Assembly (NCBI RefSeq): GCF_003967515.1
Contig: NZ_BIFQ01000002.1
Coordinates: forward strand, 868,001-932,000
Direction: 5' to 3'
Length of the DNA stretch: 64,000 nt
Source of the DNA: Dictyobacter aurantiacus
GTDB lineage: Bacteria; Chloroflexota; Ktedonobacteria; Ktedonobacterales; Ktedonobacteraceae
Shown: one piece after another, positions 4,261-38,973 of the stretch
How the letters are laid out: every line of letters starts with the position of its first letter
How positions within the stretch are numbered: the stretch's first letter is position 1
The notes under the pieces: generated by a model
Databases searched by the model: none
What the model saw: only the letters and a program-made list of their open reading frames with translations
What the model was told of the DNA's origin: nothing
Translations under genes and position numbers: made by a program

Positions 4261-4659
4261 ATGGATACAGAAATTAAAAGGAACTCAAATGTGGTTTATA
4301 ATTGCCACTATCACGTGGTCTGGGTCCCGAAATATCGACGGAAAGTCCTGCTCAATCCAATTGATGTGCGTCTGAAAGAGCTCATCATCGAAACGATCCA
4401 GAAATGGAAACAGGAATGTGTCGAAGTGGAGGTCATGCCCGATCATGTGCATTTGCTGGTGGGATGTGATCCCCAATTTGGCATTCATAAGCTCATTCGG
4501 TTGATCAAAGGGTTCACCAGTCATCAATTAAGGCAGGAGTTTCCTGATCTCAAGAAAAAGCTCCCCTCGCTGTGGAATAACAGCTATTACGTGGGAACAA
4601 CCGGCGGTGTCACCTTGGAAGTCGTCAAACGCTATGTTGAGAGTCAGAAAGGGAAATAG
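4261..4659 (+). CDS. tnpA: IS200/IS605 transposase TnpA (Y1 HUH)
   Basis: The 132-residue protein is a single-domain Y1 transposase that cuts and rejoins single-stranded ends through a covalent tyrosine link. The HUH metal motif is MPDHVHLLV (H62, H64) and the likely nucleophile is Y125 in KRYVESQ, with Q129 as the usual metal-helping residue. YHVVWVPKYRRKVL near the N-terminus is typical. Length is near the family norm, so it looks active. The ATG at 4261 or an in-frame TTG at 4255 could start it. The stop lies 4 bases before the tnpB start. Confidence 0.92.
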   Translation: MDTEIKRNSNVVYNCHYHVVWVPKYRRKVLLNPIDVRLKELIIETIQKWKQECVEVEVMPDHVHLLVGCDPQFGIHKLIRLIKGFTSHQLRQEFPDLKKKLPSLWNNSYYVGTTGGVTLEVVKRYVESQKGK

Positions 4660-4663
4660 CAGG

Positions 4664-5959
4664 ATGCGTACCTACAAATACCGACTCTATCCGACTCGCA
4701 AACAGCAAGAGACGTTGCAATGGACGCTCGATCGGACCCGTGAACTGTACAACGCAGCGCTCCAAGAGCGCCGTGATACCTGGGCAATCATCAAGCACCA
4801 CCCGAACTTCTATGATGAGGAGTGGCGCAAACAAGCCATAAAGGATCATGGTAGGAGTTGCTACGGTCAAATCAACCAACTCCCGGAAGTGAAGGAGGTC
4901 AGGGACGAGTACAACGATATCTATTCTCAGGTGTTGCAGGAGACCTTGAAGCGGGTTGATAAAGCGTACAAAGCCTTCTTCCGACGTGTGCAGAATGGAG
5001 AGAAGGCAGGGTATCCCAGGTATCAGGGACGAGATCGGTATCATTCGTTCTGCTATCCACAATCTGGTTTCTCACTTGAAGGGAATCGGTTGGTTCTCTC
5101 GAAGATTGGGCATCTCAAGATCAAGGTGCACCGTCCAGTGCAAGGGACCATCAAAACGTGTACGATCAAGCGAGAAGGTGATTGTTGGTATGTGTGTTTC
5201 TCTGGTGAAATCGAAGCGAGCCAAGAAAAGCACACACCCTACACAGATGAAGCCGTTGGTATCGATCTGGGACTCTGTCACTTTGTAGCTCTCTCAACAG
5301 GTGACATCATAGAAAATCCGCGCTTCTTCCGTCAGGCTGAAAAGAAGATTACAGGCATGCAGCAGGAACTCGCACGCAAGAAACGCGGATCCAAACGTCG
5401 GAAGAAGACGGTCAAGCGATTGAGTAAAGCCTATCGCAAGGTGCGTAACCAGCGACAGGACTTTCTCCATCAGTGGTCACGTTGTTTGGTCAATACCTAT
5501 GAGACGATTGTGTTTGAAGATCTGGCACCATCAAAGATGAGCAAGGCACCCAAACCCAAACAAGAAAAAGAAACTGGGGCCTCTCTCCCGAATGGTGCCA
5601 GCAAAAAAGCTGGTTTGAATACGTCGATCTTGGATGCGGGTTGGTCTACGTTTATGAACCTGTGTGAATACAAGGCAGCATGTGCCGGTGTTGTCCAGGT
5701 GAAAAAAGTAGATCCCTATAAAACCAGTCAGGTATGCAGTGGATGTTTGCATGAAGGGCCGCACAAAGATCTCAGTGAGCGAGTCCATACCTGTGAGAAC
5801 TGTGGTTTGGTGTTGGATAGAGATATCAACGCCGCCATGAACATTCTTGCTGTGTGGAATGGCCTCAACCTACGTCCAACACCTAAAACAACAAAGAAGA
5901 AAACCCAGGCTCGGACGGAGCCATCAGAGGACGCGCCTCTGAGAAGCCCCCGGCTTTAG
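4664..5959 (+). CDS. tnpB: TnpB RNA-guided nuclease of the IS605 element
   Basis: The 431-residue protein has the TnpB layout: an N-terminal helix-turn-helix/OEB region starting MRTYKYRLYP, a split RuvC nuclease, and a zinc ribbon. RuvC residues are D201 (GIDLGLCHF), E285 (IVFEDL) and D387 (DRDINAAMNI). Zinc ligands are C358, C361, C377 and C380. All key residues are present, so it is probably active. TnpB proteins use an RNA from the element's right end to cut sites next to the target motif. Here that RNA would span the 3' end of tnpB and the right hairpin, with its guide read from the CoA-binding gene. Confidence 0.93.
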   Translation: MRTYKYRLYPTRKQQETLQWTLDRTRELYNAALQERRDTWAIIKHHPNFYDEEWRKQAIKDHGRSCYGQINQLPEVKEVRDEYNDIYSQVLQETLKRVDKAYKAFFRRVQNGEKAGYPRYQGRDRYHSFCYPQSGFSLEGNRLVLSKIGHLKIKVHRPVQGTIKTCTIKREGDCWYVCFSGEIEASQEKHTPYTDEAVGIDLGLCHFVALSTGDIIENPRFFRQAEKKITGMQQELARKKRGSKRRKKTVKRLSKAYRKVRNQRQDFLHQWSRCLVNTYETIVFEDLAPSKMSKAPKPKQEKETGASLPNGASKKAGLNTSILDAGWSTFMNLCEYKAACAGVVQVKKVDPYKTSQVCSGCLHEGPHKDLSERVHTCENCGLVLDRDINAAMNILAVWNGLNLRPTPKTTKKKTQARTEPSEDAPLRSPRL

Positions 5960-5976
5960 CCGTGGGGAGTCGTCAC

Positions 5977-6039
5977 GTAGAGAATAGATGTATCAAAGTC
6001 GAGCACGCCCGCCTCTTCGGCGGCCTGTCGCTGATTTGA
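5977..6039 (+). pseudogene. CoA-binding paralogue, 3' part
   Basis: Twenty codons plus TGA directly abut the right end of the IS605 element. They read VENRCIKVEHARLFGGLSLI, the C-terminus expected for the interrupted gene 3692-4081, in the matching frame. There is no start codon of its own. The stop is followed 8 bases later by the ATG of the kinase-like gene, showing the original operon spacing. Confidence 0.88.
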
Positions 6040-6047
6040 ACGAGATA

Positions 6048-6662
6048 ATGAACTGGAAGGTATTGTTGATCGGCGGCGCTTCTGGCTCGGGCAAGACCGA
6101 GGTGGCGCGCGCGGTGGGATTGCGCCTGGGCATGCCATGGCTGCAGGTCGATGATCTACGGCTGGCGTTCCAGCATAGTCAGGTGGCGCTGCCGGATCCA
6201 CAGGCGACGCGCGATCTGTACTTCTTCGCCGAGACCACCCACGTCTGGCGTCAGGGCGCGGAGGCGTTGCGCGCTGGATTGATCGCCAGCAGCCGGGCGC
6301 TGCTGCCCGCGCTTGAGATTATAATCGCCAACCACATCGATACTGACGCGCCACTGATTATAGAGGGCGATAACATCCTCCCCGAACTCATAGAGCGCTC
6401 GCGGCTGCGGCCCTATGTGGAGCGTGGGCAGTTGCGCACGGTCTTTCTGAGAGAAAGCGACGCGGACAGGCTGCGAACCAATATCGAGGCGCGCGCACGA
6501 GGAACGGCACACATTTCTCCTGAAGAACTTCAAACGGAGGCCGAAGCCAAATGGCTGTATAGTCAGTGGTTGATGACCGAAGCTGGTAGGCTGCACCAAC
6601 CCGTATTAGAAGCACGTCCCTGGGAAACATTGGGGGAAAGGATTATACTTACCAGTAGATAA
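6048..6662 (+). CDS. P-loop ATPase / 2-phosphoglycerate-kinase-like protein
   Basis: The 204-residue protein starts with a Walker A loop (LLIGGASGSGKTEVA, residues 6-20), followed by QVDDLRLAF and later LIIEGDNILPEL, an arrangement seen in AAA_33 and 2-phosphoglycerate-kinase-like proteins that phosphorylate small molecules. The substrate cannot be told from sequence. A conserved Arg cluster (FLRESDADRLRTNIEARARG) could be the lid. I start at ATG 6048; an in-frame upstream ATG at 5988 lies inside the C-terminal remnant of the CoA-binding gene. It is probably co-transcribed with metY and the CoA-binding genes and with nadK, 27 bases further on. Confidence 0.7.
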   Translation: MNWKVLLIGGASGSGKTEVARAVGLRLGMPWLQVDDLRLAFQHSQVALPDPQATRDLYFFAETTHVWRQGAEALRAGLIASSRALLPALEIIIANHIDTDAPLIIEGDNILPELIERSRLRPYVERGQLRTVFLRESDADRLRTNIEARARGTAHISPEELQTEAEAKWLYSQWLMTEAGRLHQPVLEARPWETLGERIILTSR

Positions 6663-6689
6663 AAACTTGAGAGTGCAAAGGAAATCCCG

Positions 6690-7559
6690 ATGAAGAAGAT
6701 TGCCCTGCTTTATGAAGAGTCCCAGCCCGAGACGCTGCAGTTTATACCCGAGTTGACAGCGATCCTGCAAAAGCATAACTATGAAACCGAGATCGTCAAT
6801 CTCAATCAGGAAGGGCTGGAATGTTCCGATCCCGCGTTGCAGAACTGCCAGATGCTGATCGTACTGGGTGGTGATGGCTCGATCCTGCACACCGCCCACC
6901 TCTGCTCCGCGCAGCATACGCCGATCCTGGGCGTCAACTTTGGTCGCGTCGGCTATCTGACCGAACTGGAACCCGATGAACTGGCGCACGAGCTGCCGTA
7001 TTATCTCAATGGCGACAAATCGATCTGGATAGACGAACGCACCATGCTGCAAGCTACCCTCCAGCAAGGAGAGGAACAGCAGGAGTTTATTGCGCTCAAC
7101 GACATGATGATTGCGCGTGGCACCTGGCCCCGTGGCGTCTATGTCAAGACCTGGATCGACGATCAATTCCTTGATACCTTCTATGGCGATGGAATTATCC
7201 TCTCAACGGCCACCGGCTCCACGGCCTACAATCTATCCGTCGGAGGCCCGATTATGTATCCCAAAATCGAGGCCTGCATCCTCAATCCCATCGCGCCCCA
7301 CCTCTCATCCAATCGCGCCCTGGTCATCCCGCTGCAGTCAACCATCCGCTTCCAGATCTCAACCAATAACCAGGACGGCGTCTTCTCCGCCGACGGCCAA
7401 TGGAACTGCGCCGTACAGGACGGCACCACCGTAACCATTCAAAAGAGCAACCAGATCACGCGCTTCATCCGGCGCAAGCCACCGGTCCACTTCTATCGCG
7501 TGATCCACAATCCACAACAAACAAGCGAGGAGCCCCACGCTGGCCAACCCGAAACGTAA
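6690..7559 (+). CDS. nadK: NAD kinase
   Basis: This 289-residue protein matches ATP-NAD kinase, which makes NADP from NAD in the cytosol. The signature LIVLGGDGSILHTA (GGDG at 60-63) binds ATP and contains the catalytic Asp. NFGRVGYLTEL, IALNDMMIARG and ATGSTAYNLSVGGPI are the usual NAD-site blocks; the normal NE of the NAD site is ND here. The C-terminal half is the expected beta-sandwich (FSADGQ). It follows the kinase-like gene by 27 bases. Its stop codon is directly followed by the interspersed 3'-end repeat. Confidence 0.93.
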   Translation: MKKIALLYEESQPETLQFIPELTAILQKHNYETEIVNLNQEGLECSDPALQNCQMLIVLGGDGSILHTAHLCSAQHTPILGVNFGRVGYLTELEPDELAHELPYYLNGDKSIWIDERTMLQATLQQGEEQQEFIALNDMMIARGTWPRGVYVKTWIDDQFLDTFYGDGIILSTATGSTAYNLSVGGPIMYPKIEACILNPIAPHLSSNRALVIPLQSTIRFQISTNNQDGVFSADGQWNCAVQDGTTVTIQKSNQITRFIRRKPPVHFYRVIHNPQQTSEEPHAGQPET

Positions 7560-7560
7560 T

Positions 7561-7737
7561 TTCGGCCCTCGCGGTCGATTTATCCTCGCTCACGAAAACG
7601 TACATTTCGTAGGTTCGACCCTTGCGGTCGATTTCCTCTTCACGCACGAAAACGTACATCCAAACCATCGCGTGATGTTGAATAGGGGGAACGGAATCGT
7701 GGGGCGAGGGAAATCGACCGCAAGGGTCGAACCTACG
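7561..7737. repeat. 3'-end repeat cluster (CGACC..GGTCG variant)
   Basis: Two direct copies (7561-7600 and 7610-7658) and one inverted copy (7711-7737) of a repeat lie just after the nadK stop. Each has a short hairpin, CGACC-CTTGC-GGTCG, followed by ATTT and then a CTCTTCACGCACGAAAACGTAC tail in the longer copies. Copy two and the inverted copy could also pair with each other. The same family recurs at 15054, 24271, 38905, 57632, 58164 and 61481. Confidence 0.8.
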
Positions 7738-7856
7738 TGGGGGGATAAATCATTATATCATGTATATAAATATTGATGACTTTGTAGACGGGTGCTATGA
7801 TCTATTTAGCGTCTTTGATGACGTCTCTGCTCTTGTATTCCAGGAGAGGCTAGACA

Positions 7857-8852
7857 ATGACAGATGATAGATATGCCAATGATCGATCAACACTTCCAGA
7901 AAACCTCGCCTTTTTATCCACATTGATCCAGCAGAAGCATTATGAAGAGGCCCTGGCGGCCTGTAAGCAAGCATTACAGCTAGAACCGGACAATGCTCAA
8001 CTCTATCAGATGAAAGGGGATCTGCTGGCCCGGCATTTTGATAATCCGGTCGGGGCATTAGCGGCATTTGAGATGGCGCTACAGCTGCAGCCGGACAGCG
8101 CCAATACATGGAGGGACAAGAGCCACGCGCTCTGGCAGCTCAAGCTGCATCCAGAGGCGCTGGCCGCCGCCGAGCAGGCCATTCAGCATGATTCAGAAGA
8201 TGCCAGGGCGCATTATTATAAAGGGCTCAGTCTGGCGGAACTGTATCGTGAGAGCGAGGCTCTGGAAGCATTTGAGCAGGCCATCCAACTCGATCCAGAC
8301 GAGCCAGATCCCTATTATATGCGCAACAATGTGCTGCGCGACCTGGATCGCTTTGAGGAGGCGCATGCCGCCTTTGAGGCGGGCGCCAACGCGGCCCAGC
8401 GCCGACGAACATTCGTGATAACACGCTTTCGCCAGCGGATCGAGGCGGTCCAGATGGATGGCATGCTCGAACTGGGCATCCAGCTCTTTCGTGGTGGCAA
8501 TCCAGAGAAATGGGTCGATGAAAAGTATGCGCTCTCCGGCGATGGTTACGCCAGGCTTGAGCGCGAGGATCGGCGTCAACAACTGGCGCGCCACGTCACA
8601 CTGCAGAAAATCGAGCCTGATATGTGCCATGTGCTCTTTACGCTGACCAGCGCGACCGTACCACAGCTCATCGAGCAGCCGCGCAAACAGGACTGGGATA
8701 CGGCCACCTTCGAATGCAGGATAACCCTGGGCGTAGCAGGACAGAGCACTACCTTGATGTTTGAACTACAGGAAGAAGAGATCGAGCAGGGCACGCCACC
8801 AATTGTAGAGGTGATCAAGCATTTCCGTACCCTGGATACGGGCACACGTTGA
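7857..8852 (+). CDS. TPR-repeat protein
   Basis: The 331-residue protein has about four to five tetratricopeptide units between residues 14 and 165, with recurring patterns such as ALAACKQALQLEPDNAQLY, ALAAFEMALQLQPDSAN and ALEAFEQAIQLDPDEPD. TPR units are usually protein-docking scaffolds. The C-terminal 130 residues are not TPR and show no family I recognise. No signal peptide or membrane segment is evident, so it is likely cytosolic. The gene stands alone with AGGAGAGG-like sequence before the ATG. Confidence 0.75.
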   Translation: MTDDRYANDRSTLPENLAFLSTLIQQKHYEEALAACKQALQLEPDNAQLYQMKGDLLARHFDNPVGALAAFEMALQLQPDSANTWRDKSHALWQLKLHPEALAAAEQAIQHDSEDARAHYYKGLSLAELYRESEALEAFEQAIQLDPDEPDPYYMRNNVLRDLDRFEEAHAAFEAGANAAQRRRTFVITRFRQRIEAVQMDGMLELGIQLFRGGNPEKWVDEKYALSGDGYARLEREDRRQQLARHVTLQKIEPDMCHVLFTLTSATVPQLIEQPRKQDWDTATFECRITLGVAGQSTTLMFELQEEEIEQGTPPIVEVIKHFRTLDTGTR

Positions 8853-8933
8853 GTTTTCCAGGGGTCTTGCTTTTTCCTTTGAAGAGCCTGTATAGTATAG
8901 CAACAGAATACATGCGCTTCAAAGGAAAACTCT

Positions 8934-9383
8934 ATGTATAACACTACAGGTCTGCTCATCCTATCAGCCGCTACCAGCCAGACGGCCCTCTGGGATGGAT
9001 CGGCGCGCCTGATCGTTTCCGCCGTCGCCTTGCTGGCTGGCTTCATCGGCGCCTGCTGGATCGCTTACAACAAAAGAGGGAGCGCGCCATGGCACAGCAA
9101 CGCCTGGAATCTTCTCCCATTGGCCGTCGTCTTCGTCAGCCCGGTAGTGCTCTTCCACATCCCCATTGTATTTCTGCTTCCACTCTACCTGGCCCTGCTG
9201 GTCGGACTCTATTTTATGACCAGGCGCGCCTCCCAGCTCTGGTACCGCAATCCCCTGCTGCTGATCCTGCTGGTCCTGCTCATCGCGGTCCTCTTTAAAG
9301 GCACCCTGTTCAAAGTCTTTGTCATCGGAGCCATCGTCCTAGGCAGCCTCAACTTCATCTTCAAAAAACTCTTTTCTCGCTAA
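8934..9383 (+). CDS. Small integral membrane protein, unknown
   Basis: The 149-residue protein is very hydrophobic, with about five predicted membrane segments (roughly 24-46, 60-78, 80-97, 106-122 and 125-145). It has no motif I recognise. The ATG has an AAAGGAAAAC ribosome site. It lies 81 bases after the TPR gene with a possible promoter between (TATAGTATAG near 8890), so it may be transcribed separately. Confidence 0.6.
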   Translation: MYNTTGLLILSAATSQTALWDGSARLIVSAVALLAGFIGACWIAYNKRGSAPWHSNAWNLLPLAVVFVSPVVLFHIPIVFLLPLYLALLVGLYFMTRRASQLWYRNPLLLILLVLLIAVLFKGTLFKVFVIGAIVLGSLNFIFKKLFSR

Positions 9384-9585
9384 AGGGGTCCCAGGCGTGC
9401 CTACACCCTCACCGAACCCTGGTACTACTCTCCAGGCGCGACCTCCGCTGCTTTCTCCTCTTCTGTCCATTGGGACAGGGGAATACTGGTCAATCGCTCC
9501 ATGACCACAGCACGCATTCCTGCGACAATGCGACCAGATAAACCATATACCGCAAATGAAACACAGAAGAGGAGAACATCACCAC

Positions 9586-10425
9586 ATGATCGCAGGAATG
9601 CCAACCAGCGCGGATATCCATCACCCCCTTAAGGGCCGCGTCGCCTTAGTAACCGGGGGAAGCCGGGGCATCGGGGCCGCCACCGCGCTGCTATTGGGAG
9701 AGTATGGAGCCAGCGTAGCCGTCAACTATCGCCAGAATGAGACGGCGGCCCAGAGGGTTATTTCCGCCATTGAGCAAGCCGGAGGAAAAGCCATCGCGGT
9801 CCAGGCCGACGTTGCCAACGAGGAGCAGGTCACAACTATGGTCGCTTCAATTGAAAAGGCACTTGGCCCCATTGATACCCTGATCCTCAATGCGCCAGCC
9901 TTTAGCAGTTCCTCCGCTAGCACCAGACTTTCGGCAAGCGAACAGCTTCAGGCTGTACTCGCTCCCTTCACAGGAAGCAAGTGGGAGGTTCTGGAATCCT
10001 TTGTGCAGGGACAATTGCGCTCCGCGTTCTATCCCAGCCACGCTGTCGTACCAGGCATGATCAAGCAGCAGAGAGGCAGCATCGTCTTCGTCAGCGCCAC
10101 GACAGCCCGGCGACCTGTACCCGGCGGAGGCGGCATGACAATCGCGATTGGCAAAGCCAGCGTCGAAAGCATGGTCAAGAGCATGGCGCAAGAGTTAGGC
10201 CCTTATGGCATTCGCGTCAATGCGGTGGGCGCAGGGCATATCGTCACCGATCTCAACGCGGGTACACCCCAGGAGGTACGCGAACAGATGGCGCAGGCAA
10301 CGCCCATGCGGCGAAACGGCAAACCTGAAGATGTTGCCGCCGCTATCGCATACCTTGCCTCCAACCAGGCTACCTTTGTTACTGGCGCCTACCTCACCGT
10401 CGATGGTGGAAACTTACTGATATAG
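9586..10425 (+). CDS. SDR-family protein with a replaced catalytic Tyr
   Basis: A 279-residue short-chain dehydrogenase/reductase close to FabG-type enzymes. The NAD(P)-binding TGGSRGIG is at residues 23-30, the NAG-like motif is LNAPA, and the C-terminal PxxxxR/FVTGAYLTVDGG block is normal. The active site is odd: S170 and K190 are present, but the YxxxK tyrosine is Ile (I186 in MTIAIGKAS). The protein therefore may not be a standard reductase. I start at ATG 9586, with AGAGGAGA upstream, rather than 9556. It converges with the GH4 gene and ends before a shared terminator. Confidence 0.8.
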   Translation: MIAGMPTSADIHHPLKGRVALVTGGSRGIGAATALLLGEYGASVAVNYRQNETAAQRVISAIEQAGGKAIAVQADVANEEQVTTMVASIEKALGPIDTLILNAPAFSSSSASTRLSASEQLQAVLAPFTGSKWEVLESFVQGQLRSAFYPSHAVVPGMIKQQRGSIVFVSATTARRPVPGGGGMTIAIGKASVESMVKSMAQELGPYGIRVNAVGAGHIVTDLNAGTPQEVREQMAQATPMRRNGKPEDVAAAIAYLASNQATFVTGAYLTVDGGNLLI

Positions 10426-33627: not shown

Positions 33628-34194
33628 CTAGAAAGGAGCCAAACGCGTCAAAAAGAGACGGATCGAAGCAATCTGGATGAAGGCCTCACTGCTAGAAGGC
33701 AACCCTTCATAGTCGCGAGCCAAGCGACGGTATCGCGTCAACCACGCGAAGGTACGTTCAACGACCCAGCGTTTGCGTTGCACCTGAAAGCCTCCTTTTG
33801 GTTTGACGACTTTGACGGGAACGTCTTTTTCAAGCACCCAGGTGATATGCGAGGTGTTGTGCTCATGAGGCACAATTTCGGTGCTCCACCCCAGGTGTTC
33901 TTTGACCCAGTCCTTCAATGGTCCCGTGTAGCCATGGTCGGCAAACAGGTGACGGACTCGTGGAAGCCGGCCAGTCACCCGTTGCAGCAACAACGGTGCA
34001 GCTGTGCGATCAACCAGGCCAGCAGAATGAACGATGACGGCGATCAGAAAACCTTGGGTATCAACGAGCAGATGACGTTTGCGACCCCATATTTTTTTTT
34101 CCGCCATCGTAGCCACGCTCGATGCCTCGGACTGCACTGGTTTTGATGGATTGGCTGTCAATGATGACGGCACTGGGTTCCGGGTCACGGTCAA
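33628..34194 (-). CDS. IS5-family transposase, frame B (C-terminal part)
   Basis: It continues the transposase: KKIWGRKRHLLVDTQGFLIA, second acid in HLFADHGYTGPL and the Glu in RWVVERTFAWLTRYRRLARDYE. The annotated upstream start at 34194 is only the open frame; the real product is probably a fusion with frame A of about 280 residues. No start codon with a ribosome site is evident near the join. Confidence 0.8.
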   Translation of the reverse strand: MTVTRNPVPSSLTANPSKPVQSEASSVATMAEKKIWGRKRHLLVDTQGFLIAVIVHSAGLVDRTAAPLLLQRVTGRLPRVRHLFADHGYTGPLKDWVKEHLGWSTEIVPHEHNTSHITWVLEKDVPVKVVKPKGGFQVQRKRWVVERTFAWLTRYRRLARDYEGLPSSSEAFIQIASIRLFLTRLAPF

Positions 34195-34486
34195 TGGACG
34201 TTCGTACCTGCCGGCGTAAAGTCGTCATGGCTTGTTCCCAGACCCCATTGAGCTTCCATTGACGGAAATAATGGTACAGGGTTTTTCCGTTGGGCAAATC
34301 GTGGGGCACCAATCGCCAGGAACATCCGGTGCGCACGACGTAGAGAATCCCATTGACGATTTCGCGCCGGGGAATGACCTCGAACGTCGCCTTTGGCGAC
34401 ACTGCTGGGATCAAGGGGGCTAACAATTCCCATTGATCATCTGTCAGATCGGTTGCATAGCGTTTACGGTGCAATGAGCGAGACAT
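34061..34486 (-). CDS. IS5-family transposase, frame A (N-terminal part)
   Basis: This frame encodes the N-terminal DUF4096-type region (YATDLTDDQWELLAPLIP, VVRTGCSWRLVPHDLPNGKT) and the first catalytic acid (AVIIDSQSIK). At the A9 run (34092-34100) it departs from the transposase frame, ending after about 10 unrelated residues. The join to frame B needs a +1 shift (or loss of one A), so the protein may be expressed by slippage, or this copy may be broken. Confidence 0.8.
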   Translation of the reverse strand: MSRSLHRKRYATDLTDDQWELLAPLIPAVSPKATFEVIPRREIVNGILYVVRTGCSWRLVPHDLPNGKTLYHYFRQWKLNGVWEQAMTTLRRQVRTSIDRDPEPSAVIIDSQSIKTSAVRGIERGYDGGKKNMGSQTSSAR

Positions 34487-35213: not shown

Positions 35214-35379
35214 TTCATGCGTAATAGTGTAGTCATCTATGAAAAAGTAGCTTTTCCACCTCTAACCTTGCTCCTCTGGATTACACACCATTAAATTGAT
35301 ACATTCCAATTCTTGACTTCATATTCTCCGTGACCTACAATAATGCTGCAAATTCAGCATCATAGTCTTTGAGAGGAAA

Positions 35380-36477
35380 ATGCTTGTGGGCAACAATGAC
35401 ATTGTTAAAATACTCTTCCTGGCTGCCTCCCCAAAAGAAACAAAACGATTACAATTAGACCTTGAGAATCGAACCATCAAAGAATTTATTCACCGCTCTA
35501 CGTACCGCGAGAATTTTAAGATAGAGAACGAGTGGGCGGTCGAAGATGATAACCTGCTTTATTTTATGAATTATCATCATCCTAATATTGTGCATTTTAG
35601 TGGTCATGGCACCAGCACAGGAGAGTTCATACTGGAAGGGGAGAATCGCTCAATCAGGCCAGTGCCAGGTGAAGCATTACAATCTCTCATGCAAAGGTTC
35701 AAAGATGATGTCAGGCTCGTCATATTAAATGCCTGTAACTCATCTATACAGGCGGAAATGATCGCCAAAGAAATAGATTTCGTCATTGGTATGGACGCTC
35801 CGATTGGAGACAAAGCAGCTATAAGTTTTATTTCGGCCTTCTATCAAGCATTAGGCTTTGGCAATTCCATCCAAAATTCATTTGAACAGGGCCTTACCCA
35901 ACTCCAAATAAAGGACATCCCCGCTGAATATATTCCTCATCTTTTTACCCGCCCGGGAGTTAATGCCAGTACCACCACATGGAGAGAATTGCTTTTTTCA
36001 AACAGAAAAGATAGACCAATATCGATATTTATCTCTTATGCGCCAGAGGATGATAAGTTCAGGCAAGAATTAGAGAAGCAGTTCAGTGTGCTGAGAAGGA
36101 ATAAAACGATTACCATCACAACAGTAAAGAGCACGTTAAGAGGTGAGGTCAGCGAGGATAAACTGGTTGAATATCTCAATGCAGCTGATATCGTTTTACT
36201 TTTAATCAGTCCCGATTTTCTGGCTTCAGACAGCCTGTATAATAATGAGCTCACACCCGCTATACATAGACGCCAACAAGGGCTGACATGGGTCATCCCG
36301 GTCCTGGTCAGGGAAACGGCCGAATGGCAAAATGACGAGTTATTCGGAAAACTTGCGGAATTGCCCGCCAATCACAAGCCGGTCTCAGCCTGGAGAGATC
36401 AAGATAGCGCACTGGTATCGATTGTGCAGGGGGTGCGTGACGTGATTAAAGCAATTAAAGATCAACGCTCTTCATAG
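35380..36477 (+). CDS. CHAT-TIR fusion protein
   Basis: The 365-residue protein has two domains. Residues about 8-190 match a CHAT caspase-like peptidase: His in IVHFSGHGTST (H76) and Cys in LVILNACNSS (C119) form the expected dyad. Residues about 214-345 match a TIR domain (ISIFISYAPEDDKFRQELEK, DIVLLLISPDFLASDSLY), with a Glu after the helix (E290 in YNNELTP) at the position of the NAD-cleaving residue. Such fusions are typical of stress, defence or cell-death pathways. ATG 35380 follows GAGAGGAAA. It stands alone; no sensor protein is visible next to it. Confidence 0.82.
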   Translation: MLVGNNDIVKILFLAASPKETKRLQLDLENRTIKEFIHRSTYRENFKIENEWAVEDDNLLYFMNYHHPNIVHFSGHGTSTGEFILEGENRSIRPVPGEALQSLMQRFKDDVRLVILNACNSSIQAEMIAKEIDFVIGMDAPIGDKAAISFISAFYQALGFGNSIQNSFEQGLTQLQIKDIPAEYIPHLFTRPGVNASTTTWRELLFSNRKDRPISIFISYAPEDDKFRQELEKQFSVLRRNKTITITTVKSTLRGEVSEDKLVEYLNAADIVLLLISPDFLASDSLYNNELTPAIHRRQQGLTWVIPVLVRETAEWQNDELFGKLAELPANHKPVSAWRDQDSALVSIVQGVRDVIKAIKDQRSS

Positions 36478-36514
36478 GTATGCGACACGTTTCCCCCACA
36501 CGATCGCGTATCCC

Positions 36515-36761
36515 TGTAGGCGGCATAGGCCTGCGGCCCATTAAACATGCTTAATTAACGAACAAGCAGCAGGCCGGCCTTGTGCATGCCGCCCTGTTCA
36601 CGTACGAAATGCTCGGCATGGAGTATCGGTTTTCACCGATGTCGGCGTTTGACGTGATTAGCGAACGGATCGTACGCCGAGAGGGCGGCATGCACAAGGC
36701 TGGCCTGCTGCTTGCTCATAGGCGGGCGTATCATACAGGCCGCAGGCCTATGCCGCCTACA
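36515..36761. repeat. 247-bp nested inverted repeat
   Basis: Outer arms 36515-36538 and 36738-36761 (TGTAGGCGGCATAGGCCTGC...) are perfect over 24 bases. Inner arms 36564-36595 and 36682-36713 pair with one mismatch over 32. A third pair (CGTACGA/TCGTACG) and an apex ATCGG-TTTTC-ACCGAT complete a single large foldback. There is no coding sequence. A 25-bp direct repeat (36765-36789 and 36802-36826) follows. Confidence 0.8.
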
Positions 36762-36764
36762 GAG

Positions 36765-36826
36765 ACGAAATCGTGTCACGCCCACATTCCCGTATGGGCG
36801 AACGAAATCGTGTCACGCCCACATTC
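36765..36826 (+). repeat. 25-bp direct repeat, two copies
   Basis: ACGAAATCGTGTCACGCCCA-type sequence occurs at 36765-36789 and 36802-36826, period 37 bases. It adjoins the large foldback. It may be two binding sites or a trace of repeat expansion. Confidence 0.65.
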
Positions 36827-36938
36827 TTGTTTGCTCGGTGATGAGTTCGATTTGACCATATGATATCAGATGGATACAATAGATAGCTGTATGCTTACGA
36901 ACAGATAATATAAGCACGGATAGGATAGATACAATTTT

Positions 36939-38116: not shown

Positions 38117-38906
38117 CATGCTCACATCGCTGACCACGCCCCAGGTCATCAACGGCTTGCTCCAGATAGCCGCCGCCACCGTGCTGGTCCTGGTGGTGGT
38201 AGTAATAGCCCAGTTTAATAAGGTCAAGCTCGCCACAGAGACCATCACCTCGATGGTGCGCGGTCTCATCCAGATTCTGATCGTCGGCATCATCCTGGTC
38301 CTGATCATTAACGCATCGATCATCTTCGGCTACCTGGTGCTGGCCATGATGATCGTCTTCGCTGCCGTCCTCTCACAGCGACGCGCCAAAGGTCTGCCGG
38401 GCGCGTTCAAGATCTCGCTGCTCTCCATCGGCATAGGCTCCGGCATTACCGTCGTGATCATGGCGCTGGTAGGGGTGATCGAACCCAGGATTGCCACCCT
38501 CATCCCCGTTGGCAGTATGATCATCTCCAGCTCGATGCGCACCAACTCGCTGGCCCTCAACCGCTTTCGCGCCGAGATCGAGGCGCACACCGGCCAGATC
38601 GAAGCGGGACTCTCCCTGGGCGCGCCGCCGAACATAGTCATCGAGAGCTACATGAACAACACCGTCTATGCTAGCATCATCCCGGCGGTCGACACCATGC
38701 GCTCGCTGGGCATCGTCTTCATCCCTGGACTGGCCAGCGGCATGCTCCTGGCGGGCGCCAACCCGATCTATGCCGCCGAATACCAGTTCGCCGCCATCGC
38801 CATGCTCTTTGCCGCCAGCACCCTCACAGGACTCCTCTGCGGGCTGCTGCTGCGCACAACCATCTTCTCCCCCGCCGAACAGCTCACCCTCCGCCCCCAG
38901 ATGTAA
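38100..38906 (+). CDS. fetB: ABC transporter permease, FetB/YbbM (UPF0014)
   Basis: The 268-residue membrane protein has about seven helices and the family blocks SLGAPPNIVIESYMNNTVYASIIPAVDTM and GIVFIPGLASGMLLAGANP. It pairs with the preceding ATPase (17-base overlap), giving a two-gene exporter. The stop codon overlaps the inverted 3'-end repeat that separates it from the S9 peptidase gene. Confidence 0.82.
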   Translation: MNLLHNMLTSLTTPQVINGLLQIAAATVLVLVVVVIAQFNKVKLATETITSMVRGLIQILIVGIILVLIINASIIFGYLVLAMMIVFAAVLSQRRAKGLPGAFKISLLSIGIGSGITVVIMALVGVIEPRIATLIPVGSMIISSSMRTNSLALNRFRAEIEAHTGQIEAGLSLGAPPNIVIESYMNNTVYASIIPAVDTMRSLGIVFIPGLASGMLLAGANPIYAAEYQFAAIAMLFAASTLTGLLCGLLLRTTIFSPAEQLTLRPQM

Positions 38907-38973
38907 ATCGGACGCGAGGTCCGAACCTATGGAAGGTCATGGCGCGCATAGGTTCGGACCTCGCGTCCGATTT
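38905..38973. repeat. 3'-end repeat pair forming a 27-bp inverted repeat
   Basis: Arms 38905-38931 and 38947-38973 are exact reverse complements (AAATCGGACGCGAGGTCCG... and mate) around a 15-base loop. Each arm is one copy of the GGACC..GTCC repeat. It lies between two converging genes, fetB and the S9 peptidase, touching the first stop codon and 10 bases from the second. It may be a two-way terminator or stability element. Confidence 0.85.

Follow-up and report, generated by a model that had tools for sequence, protein, structure and literature searches.

Given a small bacterial protein that joins a caspase-like CHAT domain to a TIR domain, which of the two domains acts, and what would switch it on? 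Caspase-like proteases and NAD-cleaving TIR domains are two main executioners of NLR-type immunity and normally reside in separate proteins. We considered these questions for a CHAT-TIR protein encoded in a 64,000-nucleotide stretch of Dictyobacter aurantiacus DNA, referred to below as the window. The host genome consists of two contigs of 6,133,338 and 2,748,323 bases, and the window lies on the smaller one. The smaller replicon of D. aurantiacus S27 is described as linear and chromid-like (PMC13289182).

Two predicted catalytic domains in one conserved chain

A sequence-only reading of this locus had proposed that CHAT and TIR domains are fused in one 365-residue chain. The open reading frame, Pfam matches, predicted folds, and orthologs all bear this out (Table 1), and residues 76, 119, and 290 are histidine, cysteine, and glutamate, as had been claimed. 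The ATG has a purine-rich GAGAGGA directly 5' of it; a promoter-like match, 38 bases 5' of this codon, suggests that the gene may have a transcript of its own.

Table 1. Positions of the CHAT-TIR gene and its predicted features within the window.
Feature	Position	Strand	Basis
Promoter-like TTGACT-17-TACAAT	35313..35341	+	10/12 in consensus scan; match to consensus alone
Free-standing CHAT-TIR coding sequence	35380..36477	+	365-aa open reading frame, ATG start; Pfam CHAT and TIR_2 over cut-offs; Dictyobacter orthologs
CHAT domain, residues ~9-196	35404..35967	+	PF12770; 8tl0 profile match; Foldseek
His76, predicted catalytic, HFSGHG	35605..35607	+	Aligns with HFIGHG of 8tl0
Cys119, predicted catalytic, LNAC	35734..35736	+	Aligns with LNAC of 8tl0
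TIR domain, residues ~213-360	36016..36459	+	PF13676; TIR-only model; Foldseek; profile matches
Eroded BB-loop region, residues 249-259	36124..36156	+	Alignment; lowest-confidence stretch of TIR model
Glu290, predicted catalytic TIR glutamate	36247..36249	+	Conservation; aligned with Cat1 glutamate region

The CHAT domain matches PF12770 over residues 42-168 (E 6.7e-11; 42.6 bits against a cut-off of 24). When the family profile was compared with the SAVED-CHAT protein 8tl0 (E 3.8e-31), the HxGHG and NAC motifs aligned. Structure prediction, which the sequence-only reading had called for in both domains, recovered a caspase-like fold: Foldseek matched the CHAT half of an AlphaFold model (built from 31 sequences; pLDDT 87) to 8tl0, which represents SAVED-CHAT as an activated filament (E 1.8e-14, rmsd 2.4 over 201 columns), with caspases next. 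The H76/C119 dyad is invariant across the 31 aligned sequences. At the level of sequence comparison and modeling, the domain is confirmed as a caspase-like cysteine protease fold with a predicted H76/C119 dyad.

The TIR domain matches PF13676 (TIR_2) over residues 216-321 (E 2e-10; 41.7 bits against a cut-off of 28). A TIR fold was recovered when this domain was modeled separately (pLDDT 90.5), and Foldseek matched the model to TIR domains of plant NLRs (RPS4/RRS1), animal receptors, SARM1, and SPARTA; profile matches included the Cat1 TIR and the NAD hydrolase AbTIR. The predicted catalytic glutamate, E290, is glutamate in 17 of 19 CHAT-TIR proteins – including all four from Dictyobacter – and is replaced by aspartate in an NB-ARC-fused relative and by alanine in the protein of the cyanobacterium Iningainema. 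At the BB loop, the W-[HQY]-D-R...GxEW of relatives aligns with TTVKSTLRGEVSED in the window protein, which retains the glycine alone. The motif is mostly gone from all four Dictyobacter proteins; it is kept in full by most cyanobacterial CHAT-TIR members, and TIR paralogs in the host genome retain the BB-loop tryptophan. Because this loop is eroded in Dictyobacter, the TIR there may be partly a scaffold.

Free-standing orthologs are present in four of five Dictyobacter genomes, the host included, with identities of 68% (D. kobayashii), 59% (D. arantiisoli), and 59% (a third species). The fourth other species (genome G025) yielded no ortholog, and a search of its genome for the corresponding locus returned no clear empty site. 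By the matches listed, full-length free-standing homologs are confined to Dictyobacter among the 47 genomes of the class that were searched. Relative to D. kobayashii, dN/dS is ~0.08 for CHAT and ~0.16 for TIR (with dS near saturation), which indicates that the gene is under purifying selection. The TIR evolves faster (dN 0.35 vs 0.15 for CHAT), and conservation is 76% for CHAT versus 61% for TIR.

The Dictyobacter sites have overlapping sets of chromosomal neighbors (RDD, NUDIX, FetAB, methyltransferase, CN-hydrolase), so the gene has descended together with its chromosomal surroundings, outside any defense island. No STAND, defense, or effector-associated gene is adjacent at any of the four loci. 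In the window, RDD and NUDIX genes adjoin the CHAT-TIR gene, and genes for ABC_tran and UPF0014 proteins lie further away. The latter two had been read as a FetAB exporter, a label that is right in kind, and as a relevant neighbor, which they appear not to be: the arrangement is only synteny common to one other Dictyobacter species. We rejected FetAB as a partner, since neither the D. kobayashii nor the D. arantiisoli copy has it as a neighbor. The RDD membrane protein is unsupported as a partner or substrate, as it adjoins CHAT-TIR in just two species, D. aurantiacus and D. kobayashii. A NUDIX protein acting as an NAD/ADP-ribose partner was likewise set aside: this neighbor is shared with D. 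kobayashii alone, although the search that came back empty had no positive control.

An inverted repeat next to the gene (arms at 36511-36538/36738-36765 and 36560-36607/36670-36717) had also been singled out. It belongs to a dispersed repeat family, of which the genome has tens of copies, and we rejected it as a system component. The repeat is a nested, imperfect, MITE-like palindrome with 28- and 48-nt arms, followed at 36765-36833 by a pair of 32-nt direct repeats with 37-nt spacing; the whole segment spans 36511-36833. Elsewhere in the window, an IS4/5-type transposase is split into two overlapping frames (33628-34486, minus strand; 141 and 188 aa), the first with DUF4096, upstream of the RDD gene. 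A perfect 27-nt inverted repeat at 38905-38973, where the UPF0014 and S9 peptidase genes converge, is probably a two-way terminator, and an OrfB_IS605/TnpB gene with a Cas12f1-like TNB domain lies at 4607-5956 (plus strand).

NTPase switches and the origin of the fusion

The sequence-only reading had suggested looking for a shared neighborhood in other genomes. Within Dictyobacter, none with defense genes was found, but the wider CHAT-TIR family does have NTPase neighbors. These were identified with an alignment-based scan covering the best 80 of 548 loci and one CHAT peptide pattern, which makes prevalence a lower bound. A single-sequence scan of genome contigs returned no relative, and no phage record matched.

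In a Ktedonobacteraceae MAG (L045/L088), a single 1228-aa chain combines NB-ARC, TPR, CHAT, and TIR domains. At L088, a bDLD1-TIR gene (9213-10094, minus strand) is convergent with the gene for this chain (5469-9155, plus strand). Among the best 80 of 548 loci, cyanobacteria encode many free-standing CHAT-TIR proteins of ~365 aa, some of them plasmid-borne. Genes adjoining them in Acaryochloris and Leptothoe encode NB-ARC-WD40 (L079, L080, L093) or NB-ARC-TPR (L092) proteins, and at other loci the CHAT-TIR gene adjoins one for nSTAND1 or AAA_16 (L086, L098), iSTAND (L087), EAD9-iSTAND with MoxR and vWA (L099), VMAP-C with MoxR and FGE/GUN4 (L112), or TIR-TPR or TIR-IMS (L096, L094). CHAT-only and CHAT-NB-ARC-WD40 genes adjoin CHAT-TIR in Acaryochloris, and the neighbors are unrelated at L095, L104, L078, and L102. 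In Nostocales, CHAT-TIR-AAA_35 fusions are common and are followed by AAA_35-WD40 genes. We observed one such pair at L143 (4295-6433 and 6378-10586), and at L114, L130, L131, L137, and L147 the fusion precedes, often with overlap, an AAA_35-WD40 or WD40 protein.

A STAND or ternary-system domain was present in 9 of 23 adjacent co-directional genes versus 3 of 132 other genes at the same loci (Fisher p = 1.2e-6); including TIR/CHAT partners, the counts were 13 of 23 versus 5 of 132 (p = 2.4e-9). The test used locally built profiles and a neighborhood sample of 22 loci, a small and partly redundant set (Acaryochloris plasmids, a Leptolyngbya pair). It is conservative in leaving the L099 iSTAND uncounted, but lenient in treating related strains as independent. 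Together with the predicted folds and conservation, fusion or adjacency to STAND/ternary NTPases in other genomes supports the earlier idea of an immune or death effector. The accompanying suggestion of a TIR that acts as sensor is unsupported, since the switching role in relatives belongs to a separate NTPase.

Phylogenies bear on how often the two domains were joined. In the CHAT tree, Dictyobacter groups with the NB-ARC-fused protein (support 92), and a branch with 99% support separates Ktedonobacteria from cyanobacterial CHAT-TIR proteins. Placing all CHAT-TIR proteins in one clade was rejected (p 0.0002); with the cyanobacterial CHAT-only rows left out, one origin was not rejected (AU test p 0.42). 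The trees favor separate CHAT-TIR fusions in Ktedonobacteria and cyanobacteria. In the TIR tree, Dictyobacter is nested, with moderate support, among Ktedonobacterial TIRs, favoring a Ktedonobacterial source. Among outside sequences, the one closest to the Dictyobacter CHAT-TIR TIRs is the TIR of a protein from Ktedonobacteraceae MAG G030, encoded near a gene for an adenylate/guanylate cyclase-NB-ARC-TPR protein (L180:4234-7173, minus strand).

Proposed activation in trans and division of labor between domains

No core NTPase (STAND, iSTAND, VMAP, MoxR) is in the same chain as, or adjacent to, the window CHAT-TIR. The earlier statement that no receptor is adjacent therefore holds, and the nearest of the 33 NB-ARC matches over cut-off in the host genome is ~80 kb away. 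If the family's association with an NTPase switch is a valid rule, activation must be in trans. VMAP-C and iSTAND gave no match in the host genome, with control genomes silent too, and EACC1 (PF19953) matched neither host nor control genomes. The host does encode TIR-NB-ARC-TPR (C2:2231949), TIR-NB-ARC (C1:4171974), and TIR-NACHT-HEAT (C1:5257149) proteins. The switch is most likely located elsewhere in the genome, and the probable trans-activator of the CHAT-TIR protein is one of the 33 NB-ARC proteins; the simplest route would be TIR-TIR contact with a TIR-STAND protein. Because the CHAT-TIR protein lacks an effector-associated adaptor domain, recruitment in trans would depend entirely on possible contacts of its TIR or CHAT.

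Three further host loci combine related domains. A 1219-aa protein encoded on contig C1 (~2,472,650-2,476,310; L175:3654-7313, plus strand) has an N-terminal TIR in the place where one would look for a nuclease; behind it come the domains of a type ISP restriction enzyme (coupler, N6-methylase, and specificity). A second gene on C1 (~5,298,700-5,300,700; L174:4248-6209, minus strand) encodes protein kinase, TIR, and TPR domains in one chain. On contig C2 (~377,650-391,900; L047:1656-15903), a divergent DO-GTPase/GAP1-like conflict cluster includes a CHAT protein, an nSTAND3-like ATPase, and FGE-like genes, with a TIR-NTPase-TPR protein nearby.

We consider it reasonably probable that CHAT-TIR serves as a two-domain effector in conflict systems triggered by NTPases, both STAND/NLR-like and MoxR-vWA ternary, and is found here without its switch. 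Infection would be sensed by a STAND receptor encoded elsewhere, which would oligomerize and gather CHAT-TIR copies, most likely via TIR-TIR contacts. Clustering would activate the H76/C119 dyad, leading to cleavage of one or more cellular proteins; the TIR, via E290, may also deplete NAD+, and the outcome would be growth arrest or cell death. Activation in trans, the identity of the killing enzyme, the substrates, and phage as the trigger are all inferred parts of this scheme. We regard CHAT as the putative main executioner on two grounds, the invariance of its dyad and the decay of the TIR BB loop in Dictyobacter, and the TIR as a recruiter with possible residual NADase activity.

How much catalysis the TIR retains separates this two-domain effector from a possible alternative that we regard as tentative, in which CHAT is the sole enzyme and the Ktedonobacterial TIR is purely an assembly adaptor – a MyD88-type scaffold that consumes no NAD+. 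Loss of the BB-loop motif, including the W of GxEW, from Dictyobacter fits an adaptor, as do the faster evolution of the TIR and the aspartate and alanine found at position 290 in the NB-ARC-fused and Iningainema proteins. Yet E290 persists in every Dictyobacter protein and in 17 of the 19 CHAT-TIR proteins overall, the cyanobacterial members mostly have an intact BB motif, and the TIR profile resembles those of the NADase TIRs Cat1 and AbTIR.

The same conserved glutamate could instead mark the TIR as the executioner, a NADase, with CHAT as a regulator that cleaves the chain or an inhibitor, or as the domain that contacts the receptor. We think this unlikely: the TIR active site varies more than the CHAT dyad (17/19 vs 31/31 conserved), and it is the TIR that has an eroded loop in Dictyobacter, even though TIR-STAND proteins are abundant in the host genome and the CHAT-only and CHAT-NB-ARC-WD40 neighbors in Acaryochloris would fit CHAT-CHAT contacts.

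It is quite unlikely that the Dictyobacter gene is a leftover of a STAND receptor that lost its NTPase half, with the CHAT-TIR remnant now serving as a regulator or an immune decoy. Four species retain it with neither predicted catalytic site lost and with dN/dS far below 1, which argues against such a history, despite the fused NB-ARC-TPR-CHAT-TIR chain in a relative, the orphan state and degenerate BB loop of the gene, and its absence from one Dictyobacter genome. Moreover, cyanobacteria commonly have a free-standing CHAT-TIR gene with a separate STAND gene as its neighbor, so being free-standing need not mean being a remnant. A nucleotide-sensing role in a second-messenger system (CBASS, type III CRISPR SAVED-CHAT, or Thoeris) is highly improbable, as CHAT and TIR fill residues 1-365, leaving no sensor domain such as SAVED or CARF, and the adjacent genes scanned include no ThsA, CD-NTase, or Cas10, notwithstanding domain matches to the PADLOC models ThsB1 (7.6e-32) and SAVED_CHAT (2.2e-9) and a SAVED-CHAT protein, 8tl0, as best solved relative.

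Comparison with known systems

A small protein with both executioner types, which can be joined to an NTPase switch, adjoin one, or stand alone, gives a direct means of testing how effectors are shared in trans among bacterial NLR-like receptors. It also lets one ask which of the two enzymes kills, and the cyanobacterial operons represent testable receptor-effector pairs. The most far-reaching version – an orphan dual-enzyme executioner (protease plus NAD+ hydrolase) shared in trans by many NLR-like receptors within one genome, as a bacterial equivalent of a common executioner protein, and arising from at least two independent fusions, in Ktedonobacteria and cyanobacteria – is doubtful enough that we offer it as speculation. 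No description of free-standing CHAT-TIR effectors was found in the literature searched, mostly papers outside subscription, which is weak evidence of novelty. A single protein with caspase-like CHAT and TIR domains, read as conflict effector domains, has been described as the DGR 2 target of Thiohalocapsa PB-PSB1 (PMC10907252). That protein is a diversity-generating retroelement target, and nothing similar was seen at the window gene.

Several characterized systems share one domain with the window protein. Bacterial gasdermin systems pair proteases with a gasdermin gene, which is not among the genes adjoining CHAT-TIR. No ThsA-type partner of Thoeris adjoins the gene either, and the PADLOC ThsB1 match spans the TIR alone. 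The CRISPR-associated TIR protein Cat1 and AbTIR have the same TIR fold, with the catalytic glutamate region aligned, but the window protein lacks a CARF domain and its BB loop is eroded. SAVED-CHAT, a cA3-activated protease of a proteolytic cascade (PMC11229360), is the closest solved relative (8tl0) and has the same CHAT fold and His/Cys positions; the window protein lacks the cA3-binding SAVED domain and has its TIR on the other side of CHAT.

The closer parallels are with NTPase-dependent systems. In relatives, CHAT-TIR is fused to or beside bacterial STAND/NB-ARC receptors, whereas the Dictyobacter protein has neither NTPase nor repeats. In VMAP, iSTAND, and related systems, caspase-like and TIR domains are alternative effectors (Kaur et al. 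2020, PMC7159879). The NTP-dependent conflict systems of Kaur et al. (VMAP/iSTAND MoxR-vWA ternary, EACC1-caspase, and DO-GTPase-GAP1) use the same effector classes, a caspase-like peptidase and a TIR, and their core genes adjoin CHAT-TIR at L099, L087, and L112. The window protein differs from these systems in having neither an adjacent core NTPase nor an adaptor, and in carrying both effectors in one chain.
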